NCBI GenBank assembly: GCA_944325215.1
Contig: CALUZC010000005.1
Span: 1-64,000, forward strand
DNA length: 64,000 bases
Direction: 5' to 3'
Source: an uncultured Mucispirillum sp.
GTDB taxonomy: Bacteria; Chrysiogenota; Deferribacteres; Deferribacterales; Mucispirillaceae
In this document: positions 11,864 through 21,356 of the stretch, in pieces
Position numbering within the stretch: position 1 is the first letter of the stretch
Layout: each line of letters begins with the position of its first letter
The notes under the pieces: generated by a model
Told to the model about the DNA's origin: nothing
The model's input: only the letters and a program-made list of their open reading frames with translations
The model's database searches: none
Program-made: the position numbers and the translations under genes

Positions 11864-12643
11864 ATGGCTTTTATACACCCTAGTGCAGAAGTAGATAAAA
11901 CGGCACAAATTGCAGACAGTGCAGAAATTGCAAGGGGAGCTTACGTTGGTCCTCATTGTATAATTGGCGAGAATGTAAAAATAGGTATGAATGCCATAGT
12001 AGAGTGCCATACGGAAATAGGTGATGGAACAATTCTTGCGCCTAATGCTCATATTGGTGGTGCACCTCAAGACTATTCATATAAAAATGAAGATACAAAA
12101 CTAATTATAGGTAAAAACTGTGTAATTCGTGAGTTTGCTCCAATACACAGGGCAACTACTAAAGAAGACTGGAAAACTGAAATAGGTGATAACTGTCTTA
12201 TTATGGCACTTTCCCATATAGGTCATGATTGTAAATTTGGTAATAATGTTACATTAGTTGCATCAATGATACCAGGTCATATTCATATTGATGATTATGC
12301 TCTAATTTCAGGTTATACAGCACTTCATCAAGGTGTGCATATTGGAACTATGGCTATGGTTTCTGGTATGAGCAGAATTTCATTAGATGTTCCACCTTAT
12401 TGTATAGCAGCAGACCCTGTTAAAGGAAGAATTGCAGGGCTTAATGTTGTAGGTTTAAAAAGGCGTGGAGTATCAGCAGAAGCAAGAATGGAACTTTCTC
12501 GTGCATTAAAAATATTTTTAAACAGATCGTATTCTTTAGATGAAGCAAAAGAAAGATTAAAAGATTTAAACCAGCTTGATGAAGTTGTTAAATTTAGAGA
12601 GTTTATAGAAGCTTCTTCTCGCAGAGGTATTACAAGGGTATAA
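11864..12643 (+). CDS. lpxA: UDP-N-acetylglucosamine acyltransferase
   Basis: A 259-residue left-handed beta-helix protein, the first step of lipid A synthesis. Hexapeptide repeats run from residue 1 to about 190, then a helical C-terminal domain. The catalytic His lies in LSHIGHDCKFGN (residue 121 by analogy with the E. coli AHIAHDC motif). The second gene downstream, past the hairpin array, is a GnnA-like dehydrogenase, so the acceptor could be the 3-amino sugar GlcNAc3N rather than GlcNAc; that is inference from neighbourhood. GGAG precedes the ATG. Confidence 0.96.
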   Translation: MAFIHPSAEVDKTAQIADSAEIARGAYVGPHCIIGENVKIGMNAIVECHTEIGDGTILAPNAHIGGAPQDYSYKNEDTKLIIGKNCVIREFAPIHRATTKEDWKTEIGDNCLIMALSHIGHDCKFGNNVTLVASMIPGHIHIDDYALISGYTALHQGVHIGTMAMVSGMSRISLDVPPYCIAADPVKGRIAGLNVVGLKRRGVSAEARMELSRALKIFLNRSYSLDEAKERLKDLNQLDEVVKFREFIEASSRRGITRV

Positions 12644-12654
12644 AAAAGTAATTC

Positions 12655-13128
12655 AAATAAATTTTGTTACACGCCCAAAATTTATTTAGCAGATAGTTTT
12701 GAAATATAAAAAAACTAATTTATTTCGTTTATAAGCGCAGTAAAAAACAGAATGTTTTTTTAAATTGGTTAAACAGTTTATAAAAATACAGGACGTATTT
12801 TTATATAAAGAGGTTACTGGAGCCACATGACGTGGCGACTTTAGTAGGCAAAAACCAAATGGCAAAAAATAAATTTTTTGCCAGAATATTTGCCAAACTA
12901 ACAATGCTCACCGCATTATTAGTTTACAAGGAAAATAAATTTTGGTACACGCCCAAAATTTATTTAGCTATATTAATTTTATACTGCATAAACTAATTTA
13001 TTTCGTTTATAAGCGCAGTAAAAAACAGAATGTTTTTTAAATTGGTTAAACAGTTTATAAAAATACAGGACGTATTTTTATATAAAGAGGTTACTGGAGC
13101 CACATGACGTGGCGACTTTAGTAAGCGA
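12655..13128. repeat. Two diverged tandem copies (period about 277 bp) built from hairpins
   Basis: The 557-bp space between lpxA and the gnnA-like gene holds no gene. Segments 12655-12932 and 12933-13128 share two long near-identical blocks: an AAATAAATTTT palindrome with TACACGC loop (12655-12687 and 12933-12965), and about 135 bp from AACTAATTTATTTCG to GACTTTAGTA (about 12714-12846, 12991-13122). Inside are stacked hairpins with mostly five-base loops: AAAAAAC/AGAAT/GTTTTTT (12742, 13020), a 27-bp palindrome with AGGAC loop (12779, 13056), GCCAC/ATGAC/GTGGC (12822, 13099). Copy 1 alone adds hairpins at 12860-12883 and 12895-12925; a 9-bp stem at 13127-13149 follows copy 2. Confidence 0.85.
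12933..12965. repeat. TACACGC-loop palindrome (best copy)
   Basis: A perfect 13-bp stem, AAATAAATTTTGG (12933-12945) with 12953-12965, encloses the loop TACACGC. A second copy with one mismatch lies at 12655-12687. Elements with other arm sequences but the same loop occur at 18157-18189 and, inverted and decayed, at 21243-21276. The covarying arms with a fixed loop suggest a REP-like family whose structure is conserved. Confidence 0.75.
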
Positions 13129-13159
13129 AAACTAATTTATTTAGTTTTCAAGCGTTATT

Positions 13160-13186
13160 TATAAAAATACAGGACGTATTTTTATA
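13160..13186 (+). promoter_or_regulatory. Third copy of the AGGAC-loop palindrome, in the gnnA-like 5' leader
   Basis: TATAAAAATAC (13160-13170), loop AGGAC, complement 13176-13186: an 11-bp perfect stem identical to those at 12779-12805 and 13056-13082. Its right flank provides AGAGG (13190-13194), 6 bases from the ATG at 13201. The hairpin therefore stands just ahead of the ribosome-binding site and could influence mRNA stability or initiation. Confidence 0.6.
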
Positions 13187-13200
13187 TAAAGAGGTTAAAT

Positions 13201-14172
13201 ATGTTGAACGTAGGTCTAATAGGTCTTGGAAAAATGGGAAAATATCACTTAAATTTATATAGTGATATTAGAGATGTTAAATTAATGGGGATATGTGATG
13301 CAAATGCAGAAGTAGTAAATGAGCTGGCATCTAAAGTTGGTGTTAATGGTTATACTAATTATAAAGAAATGTTTCCATATGTTGATGCTATAACTATTGC
13401 AGCACCTACTCGTTTTCATTATGAAATTGCAAAAGAATGTTTGCTTGCTGGTAAACATTTACTTGTGGAAAAGCCTATTACTACAAATTATGACCAAGCA
13501 AAAGAGCTTTTTGATATAGCATTATCAAAAAACCTTGTTTTACATATTGGGCACGTTGAAAGATTTAATGGTGCAGTTCAAGAAATAAGAAAAATTACTG
13601 AAAATCCTAGATTTGTTGAATCTAAAAGGGTAGCACAATTTAACCCAAACTTTAAGGCTGATAGTATTGTTCTTGATTTAATGATACATGATATTGATAT
13701 TATCTTAAACCTTGTTAACAGTCCTGTAAAATCTATTCAAGCTATGGGTTCAAAGGTGTGTACTGAATTGGCTGATTTTGCTTCAGTAAATATTGCTTTT
13801 GAAAATAATACTGTAGCTAATCTTTTTGTAAGCCGTATGAGCCAGATAAAAGAAAGATATATGACAGTTTATGAGCAGGACGCTTTATATAAACTTGATT
13901 TTACTACTCAGGATATTAATATATACCGTCAAGGTCAAACACAGCAGACAATTAGTGATAAAGAATTGCGTTATAAAAATGAGTTTATTCAGGAAAGATT
14001 ATTTGTATATAAAGAAAACCCACTAAAAAGTGAGATTATGCATTTTATTAGTTGTGTTACTGGTAAAACTAAAAGGACAGTTACTGTTGAACATGATTTA
14101 GCTTCGCTTAATGTGGCTTTAAAAACAGATGAACTGCTTAGAAAGGGAACTTTTGGTAGTATTGATTTATAA
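13201..14172 (+). CDS. Gfo/Idh/MocA oxidoreductase, GnnA-like UDP-GlcNAc 3-dehydrogenase candidate
   Basis: 323 residues. The Rossmann motif GLIGLGKMGKYH is at 6-16, the family EKP motif at 90-92 (LLVEKPITTN), and MIHDIDIILNLV carries the conserved His region. In bacteria such as Leptospira and Acidithiobacillus an lpxA-linked Gfo/Idh enzyme (GnnA) oxidises UDP-GlcNAc at C3 so that GnnB can aminate it for lipid A with amide-linked 3-acyl chains. Position between lpxA and an lpxI-like gene fits that role; the partner aminotransferase GnnB is not in the window. Substrate is inferred from context. Confidence 0.8.
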   Translation: MLNVGLIGLGKMGKYHLNLYSDIRDVKLMGICDANAEVVNELASKVGVNGYTNYKEMFPYVDAITIAAPTRFHYEIAKECLLAGKHLLVEKPITTNYDQAKELFDIALSKNLVLHIGHVERFNGAVQEIRKITENPRFVESKRVAQFNPNFKADSIVLDLMIHDIDIILNLVNSPVKSIQAMGSKVCTELADFASVNIAFENNTVANLFVSRMSQIKERYMTVYEQDALYKLDFTTQDINIYRQGQTQQTISDKELRYKNEFIQERLFVYKENPLKSEIMHFISCVTGKTKRTVTVEHDLASLNVALKTDELLRKGTFGSIDL

Positions 14173-18050: not shown

Positions 18051-18115
18051 TAAGCCATTTCTTTTATACAAATCTTATATTATCAAAAAAATACATTGTT
18101 GCCAGTTTTATCATG

Positions 18116-18148
18116 AGCCCAATAATACTCGTCGCATTTTATTAGGCT
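18116..18148. repeat. Hairpin with CTCGTCGCAT loop, related to 12895-12925
   Basis: AGCC-C-AATAA (18116-18125) pairs with TTATT-A-GGCT (18139-18148) around a loop containing CTCGTCGCAT. The element at 12895-12925 has the same plan: a stem, a C/A bulge pair, a second stem and a loop containing CTCACCGCAT. It stands 8 bp before the TACACGC palindrome, as if the two form one composite unit. Confidence 0.5.
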
Positions 18149-18156
18149 GCTAAGGT

Positions 18157-18189
18157 AACTAAACTTGGATACACGCTCCAAGTTTAGTT
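18157..18189. repeat. TACACGC-loop palindrome
   Basis: A perfect 12-bp stem, AACTAAACTTGG (18157-18168) with 18178-18189, encloses ATACACGCT. The loop core matches the 12655 and 12933 elements while the arms differ in compensating fashion. It lies in the 250-bp gap between convergent genes, after the DUF1015 terminator. The rest of the gap shows nothing I can name. Confidence 0.7.
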
Positions 18190-18261
18190 CAATAGATTAA
18201 TTTTAAATGTATCTAATTTTTATTATTTCAAATTTAAAAATAATAAACTATTTTTTACAGT

Positions 18262-21172: not shown

Positions 21173-21242
21173 GTAAGATTTTGTAAAAAGTCATTTATGT
21201 TTTATTTTTAAAATAGTAAATGTTATTTAAATTGATTTGATG

Positions 21243-21276
21243 AGCAAAATTTAGAGCGTGTATCTAGGTTTAGTTT
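21243..21276 (-). repeat. Decayed TACACGC-loop element (inverted)
   Basis: On the minus strand it reads AAACTAAACCTAG, then ATACACGCT, then CTAAATTTTGCT. The loop matches the elements at 12655, 12933 and 18157, and the two inner arms pair (TAG/CTA), but the outer arms look like one arm from each of the other two types and pair only partly. It lies in the 249-bp gap between convergent tetR and eno genes. Confidence 0.5.
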
Positions 21277-21356
21277 TCATTTAATGTCTGAATAAAGAGA
21301 AGTAAGAATTATTAGGTTTATAAAAGACTAGCGAAAAAAATGTATTTTAGATAAGC

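Follow-up and report, generated by a model that had tools for sequence, protein, structure and literature searches.

The DNA analysed here (the window, a stretch of 64,000 nucleotides from an uncultured Mucispirillum sp.) raises the question of what occupies the space between lpxA, which ends at position 12643, and a gnnA-like open reading frame, which starts at 13201. A hairpin array at 12644–13200 fills this gap exactly. Its folding energy was -146 kcal/mol, compared with -92 +/- 6 kcal/mol in dinucleotide shuffles (z = -8.8), and none of 100 shuffles was as good. A sequence-only reading had described a tandem array of hairpins without a reading frame at this place; every hairpin which it named could be located, and zero open reading frames of at least 80 aa were present within the array. 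The 557 bases are a rearranged tandem array of a dispersed hairpin repeat.

The period of about 277 bp which had been proposed for two copies was found (277/278). The copies, however, are not equal versions of one string; the array combines two unit types, of which one is inserted in the other, and contains a single complete CsrA-type unit besides partial ones. A single array family was rejected, and since the same loops are found on stems of unrelated sequence at other places of the window and of the genome, for example TACACGC on AACTAAACTTGGA stems at 18157–18189 and on contig C14, two nested families were modelled separately: R1 is a covariance model of the CsrA-type core unit, with matches counted at E <= 0.01, and R2 is a model of the core of the MITE-like type-1 element, with 135 positions. 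The features of the locus are as follows:

12655–12687, + strand: TACACGC-loop hairpin, remnant of a type-1 (MITE-like) element, helix B only; weak R2 match at 12585–12711.
12740–12816, + strand: partial CsrA-type unit with AGAAT hairpin (about 12742–12760), P3 with AGGAC loop (12779–12805) and SD-like AAAGAGG; R1 match at 12740–12814, 29.8 bits.
12818–12891, + strand: partial CsrA-type unit with P1 GCCAC-ATGAC-GTGGC (12822–12836) and CTTTAGTA, split by the type-1 element; R1, 37.3 bits.
12859–12989, + strand: type-1 MITE-like element with GGCAAAAAAT hairpin, helix A (TCACC loop) and helix B (13 bp, TACACGC loop); R2, 126 bits.
13018–13091, + strand: partial CsrA-type unit with AGAAT hairpin (about 13020–13038), P3 with AGGAC loop (13056–13082) and SD-like AAAGAGG; R1, 30.6 bits.
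13095–13195, + strand: complete CsrA-type unit with P1 (13099–13113, ATGAC), P2 (13127–13149, TTTAT) and P3 (13160–13186, AGGAC); R1, 85.7 bits, E 1.3e-14.
13201–14172, + strand: gnnA-like open reading frame, its start codon 6 nt past the last unit.

Both AGAAT hairpins and the additional stems with TCACC (12903–12917) and TTTAT loops were present as the sequence-only reading had described them, and the 11-bp stem with AGGAC loop proved to be present three times instead of twice. Other details needed correction: the TTACT/AGTAA pair outside the ATGAC hairpin is complete in the second copy only (AGTAG in the first), and the stem below the TACACGC loop has 13 bp at 12933–12965, but 12 bp plus a mismatch in the remnant. 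The complete unit ends in the SD of gnnA, AAAGAGG.

The type-1 element is about 195 bp long. Terminal inverted repeats and target duplication, as expected of a MITE, are represented by the ends CAGATTGTC...GACAGTCTG and by duplicated terminator hairpins, which flank many copies; the copy inside the array, which splits a CsrA-type unit, has no clear ends. R2 matches numbered 17 in the present genome and 0–16 in other Mucispirillum genomes, and were confined to Mucispirillum. A Y1 gene was considered as partner of type 1, since in G007 a type-1 element is found close to one such gene; the second copy of this gene has none beside it, and thus no link between Y1 and type 1 is apparent. Further type-1 elements of the window are at 18080–18214 (+) and 21218–21354 (-), the latter bordered by a terminator hairpin in duplicate, CTGCTAAAGAAAACTTTGGCAG / CTGCCAAAGAAAACTTTGGCAG. 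L105, L047, L070, L229 and L026:7400-7500 contain yet another, third hairpin repeat, whose inner sequence is CCCGACYGRRTAGGGAGGAA; in L229 it is inserted in a type-1 loop.

The CsrA-type unit of about 100 nt consists of the hairpins P1, P2 and P3, often with an SD directly following. The loop consensus is AGGAN for P1, TTTAY-like for P2 and either an ANGGAY hexaloop or an AGGAY pentaloop for P3, which has a long, AT-rich stem; in most units the loops are closed by C-G. GGA is contained in 106 of 115 P3 loops and in 90 of 109 P1 loops, most of the other P1 loops being ATGAN. In the array of the window, which is worn, neither P1 loop has kept its GGA (ATGAC in both), the two extra hairpins have AGAAT loops, and three AGGAC loops of P3 are left. 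The 109 P1 helices comprise 27 different stems, with pairing in 99% of the cells. In an alignment of 122 distinct units, which was fitted to the structure, 498 cells with double changes were counted, compared with 133 after shuffling (score 0.476 versus 0.130); the seed alignment, which was not so fitted, contained 45 changes on both sides, compared with 11.5 in shuffles. G-U pairs exceeded A-C mismatches (63 versus 17; in P1 helices 8 versus 0; in the other families 28 versus 3), as would be expected if RNA of one strand is the selected molecule, with the caveat that the R1-type model itself rates G-U above A-C. When 454 kb of the genome were scanned, seven of eight hairpins with a stem of at least 7 and a CsrA-type loop were R1 units. 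Rfam, at relaxed and at gathering thresholds, yielded no credible family; the literature searched contained no account of a repeat of this kind, and the main text of the M. schaedleri genome paper names neither CsrA nor such a repeat.

The sequence-only reading had proposed a covariance search for further copies and for conservation in relatives, and copies were indeed found throughout the genome and its relatives. R1 units numbered 20–21 in the present genome, 10–68 per genome in all ten Mucispirillum genomes, 30–82 in three genomes of another family of Deferribacterales (G019, G032, G039) and 1–13 in several further genomes, and were absent from nine genomes outside the phylum; the CsrA-type repeat is thus present across several families of the order. 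Tandem arrays are common, e.g., with six units upstream of glmS in G032 and, at 164-nt spacing, with five in G006. Between lpxA and gnnA, units are present, in differing numbers and states, in G001, G002 (at a contig edge), G003, G004 (worn), G007 and G009, while there are none in G006. Between argC and argJ the gap is empty and only 20–30 bp long in G000, G001, G005, G007 and G009, contains units in G003, G004, G006 and G008, and has a differing insert in G002. Orthologous sites, empty in some genomes and filled in others, indicate that units were gained and lost. No terminal inverted repeats of the unit were recognised by eye; direct repeats were present on both sides of 38 of 75 arrays, compared with 29 of 222 mismatched pairs, and some of them duplicate SD or start regions. 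These repeats could be due to target duplication, recombination or tandem duplication. A fourth repeat, AGATACTTCGC...CTCAGTATGAC, is duplicated on either side of CsrA-type units in G006 (L069, L120, L059, L135).

Units whose distance to a start codon was at most 60 nt were sense in 20 cases and antisense in one (about 14 independent loci), and the upstream gene was on the same strand as the array in 51 cases versus 21. In Mucispirillum, 30 arrays were sense and 16 antisense to both neighbours; in the other families, 18 were codirectional with both neighbours and none was antisense to both. Few units lie between divergent genes. Five units of the present genome are among genes of Mu-like prophages, four of them between head, neck and sheath genes on contig C14 (G000:C14:51500-60500, L140) and one just 3' of a MuB-like gene on contig C6 (G000:C6:50001-70000, L026). 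In the Mu-like stretches (MuA/MuB-like) on C14 and C6, units were seen directly 5' of structural genes, all in sense orientation.

Judged from loop and closing pair, P1 and P3 have the form of CsrA/RsmA sites. High-affinity targets of CsrA/RsmE contain an ANGGAX hexaloop directly on a stem, AGGAX being a variant of lower affinity (PMC4005645); the SELEX consensus of CsrA is RUACARGGAUGU, the repeats of CsrB are CAGGA(U/A/C)G, CsrA dimers bridge sites 10–63 nt apart, and in glgC a hairpin site is combined with a site at the SD (PMC7652899). P3 hairpins such as ATACAAGGATGTAT fit the SELEX consensus. An A(N)GGAN loop on a C-G-closed stem is the rule in the family; in the window it is present in the three P3 hairpins and absent from the two P1 hairpins, with their ATGAC loops. 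The distance between the GGA of P3 and that of the SD is 14–25 nt at argJ, rng and others (14–15 nt at argJ and rng), and the median distance between the GGA motifs of P1 and P3 is 63 nt, which is the upper limit reported for bridging. A csrA gene was found in each of the 23 genomes with units, and in 23 of the 37 genomes without (Fisher p 4e-4, kinship uncorrected); many relatives with csrA are devoid of the repeat. CsrA of the present genome retains the RNA-contact residues L4 and R44, and fliW is adjacent.

We infer from these patterns, with a probability of roughly 0.6, that the dispersed repeat of about 100 nt carries paired CsrA-type hairpins which place genes, including prophage operons, under the control of CsrA. 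As the loops match the landing sites of CsrA, the repeat may be a portable CsrA switch; transcription of the units, binding of CsrA, an effect on translation and the mode of spread are the conjectural parts of this proposal. The sense transcript would fold into P1, P2 and P3, and the pair of P1 and P3 could be bound by one CsrA dimer, or by two. If the SD at the end of a unit contains GGA, a dimer held by P3 could reach over the 14–25 nt and block the entry of ribosomes, similar to glgC; far from starts, in RNA that is 3' or intercistronic, tandem units might serve as CsrA decoys or stability elements. Genes and prophage operons would come under CsrA control as units spread and multiply in tandem. 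Points against the proposal are the 16 arrays of Mucispirillum that are antisense to both neighbours, the distance between the GGA motifs of P1 and P3 at the limit for bridging, the long stems of P3 and the absence of the repeat from many relatives with csrA. In the gnnA leader, the three AGGAC hairpins of P3 should still bind CsrA; however, the SD of gnnA is without GGA, and therefore a bridge from P3 to the SD is impossible. Since the copy is also worn, binding of CsrA to at most the three P3 hairpins, and a control weaker than at argJ, would be expected.

In the usual description of CsrA networks, a single regulator acts on sites which arose one by one in individual mRNAs. If such sites are carried by a dispersed repeat, the CsrA regulon could grow, shrink and differ between sister species by this route, and prophages would gain a hold on a global regulator of the host, or become obedient to it; the units also represent a list of candidate CsrA targets for a little-studied phylum. 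A bolder version, in which the repeat is a mobile translational operator, hopping between start sites with a pair of CsrA sites and an SD, connecting genes of host and prophage to the CsrA-FliW network and titrating CsrA by copy number, is conceivable, although we would rather doubt it. If it were true, the strategy would be a recurrent one, given the similar pairs of GGA hairpins in Treponema and in Gammaproteobacteria. The exact pattern of paired loops occurred in 32 stretches of public genomes, mostly from these two groups. The units of Treponema show strong covariation of their own and a similar architecture, with 1–12 copies per genome and G-U and A-C counts of 8 and 6, respectively; they are antisense to the following gene, usually 29–30 nt upstream of its start codon. 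Neither these counts nor this placement agree with the units of Deferribacterales; a CsrA leader would not account for the placement, and the Treponema units, possibly a 5' UTR element of their own, may belong to a separate, convergent family. Their paired A(N)GGAN hairpins end in CCGCTAACGCGG, an A/T-rich stretch and AGGAG, and are in tandem in L240 (L240, L243, L250, L271-L300). Several gammaproteobacterial matches contain series of three or four consecutive CAGGA hairpins; such runs resemble Csr sponge RNAs in L249, L258 and L264 (Luteimonas/Lysobacteraceae) and in L269 (Chromatiales).

Dispersed copies, tandem arrays, orthologous empty sites and flanking direct repeats, including those which duplicate SD or start regions, could also be produced by selfish DNA, i.e., a non-autonomous mobile repeat whose hairpins are seen by a transposase as single-stranded DNA or cruciforms, with loops that are enzyme contacts and with no regulatory role; the Treponema look-alikes of opposite polarity would agree with this. 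It is an unlikely explanation nevertheless, as no Y1 (PF01797)/RAYT transposase was detected in G000, G006, G019, G032 and G039, the large excess of G-U over A-C points to RNA of one strand, the bias towards sense orientation is strong, at start codons as well as in the other families, and the loops fit CsrA specifically, including the N that is optional in A(N)GGAN. Structure alone would not hold AGGAN/ANGGAY loops across 27 stem sequences of P1, which makes it somewhat less likely still that the units act independently of CsrA, as intercistronic hairpins whose folding alone would serve the stability, processing or insulation of transcripts or modulate the entry of ribosomes; their sense, intercistronic, 3' and leader positions, their scarcity between divergent genes and their strong stems would suit such a function.

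The sequence-only reading had offered a structured RNA, a mosaic of REP-like units, and a recombination or nucleoid-protein site. Tandem arrays and the rearrangement of the locus between species are compatible with the last of these, but 20–80 copies dispersed over the genome, their covariation of RNA type and their bias towards sense orientation, and no recombinase association seen, render it highly improbable; nothing was found that would favour it specifically. The structured RNA gained support from covariation, G-U bias, sense orientation and the copies in the genome and its relatives, and a portable element that would confer control by CsrA is the preferred reading. The array is a mosaic of repeat units, but not of REP in the strict sense, since Y1/RAYT is absent here and from the richest genomes.

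A Y1/RAYT transposase is the defining feature of REP systems, and REP/RAYT identity was rejected for this reason. Dispersed intergenic hairpins, arrays and scarcity between divergent genes are shared with REP/BIME, whereas the stems of the present units covary, with 27 stems among 109 P1 helices instead of one conserved palindrome, and have an RNA-type G-U bias. A search by blastn revealed no relatives in phage or plasmid DNA. BOX/MITE-type repeats are modular, short, non-coding and expand in tandem near start sites, as do the units described here; unlike them, the CsrA-type unit has no terminal inverted repeats that were found, while the nested type-1 element has them. TAACTGA repeats of Beggiatoaceae are likewise abundant 5' of start codons and were proposed to form a post-transcriptional network, but they are unstructured heptamers without GGA, and their author considered canonical CsrA unlikely (PMC4679880). 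Tandem GGA hairpins are typical of the sponge RNAs CsrB and RsmZ, and arrays of up to 5–6 units (10–12 sites), e.g., at glmS of G032 and in G006, are comparable; the units, however, are at many loci, many of them abutting genes, and no Csr/Rsm family of Rfam (CsrB/RsmZ) matched at gathering score. A close resemblance is also seen with the CsrA/RsmA/RsmE hairpins of CsrB and of the hcnA and glgC leaders, which have A(N)GGAN on a C-G-closed stem, paired sites and one site just upstream of the SD. SELEX favoured short stems, whereas those of P3 are long; and the pair of sites, here with predicted binding, is part of a fixed P1-P2-P3 repeat present in tens of copies per genome, instead of a single leader or small RNA.
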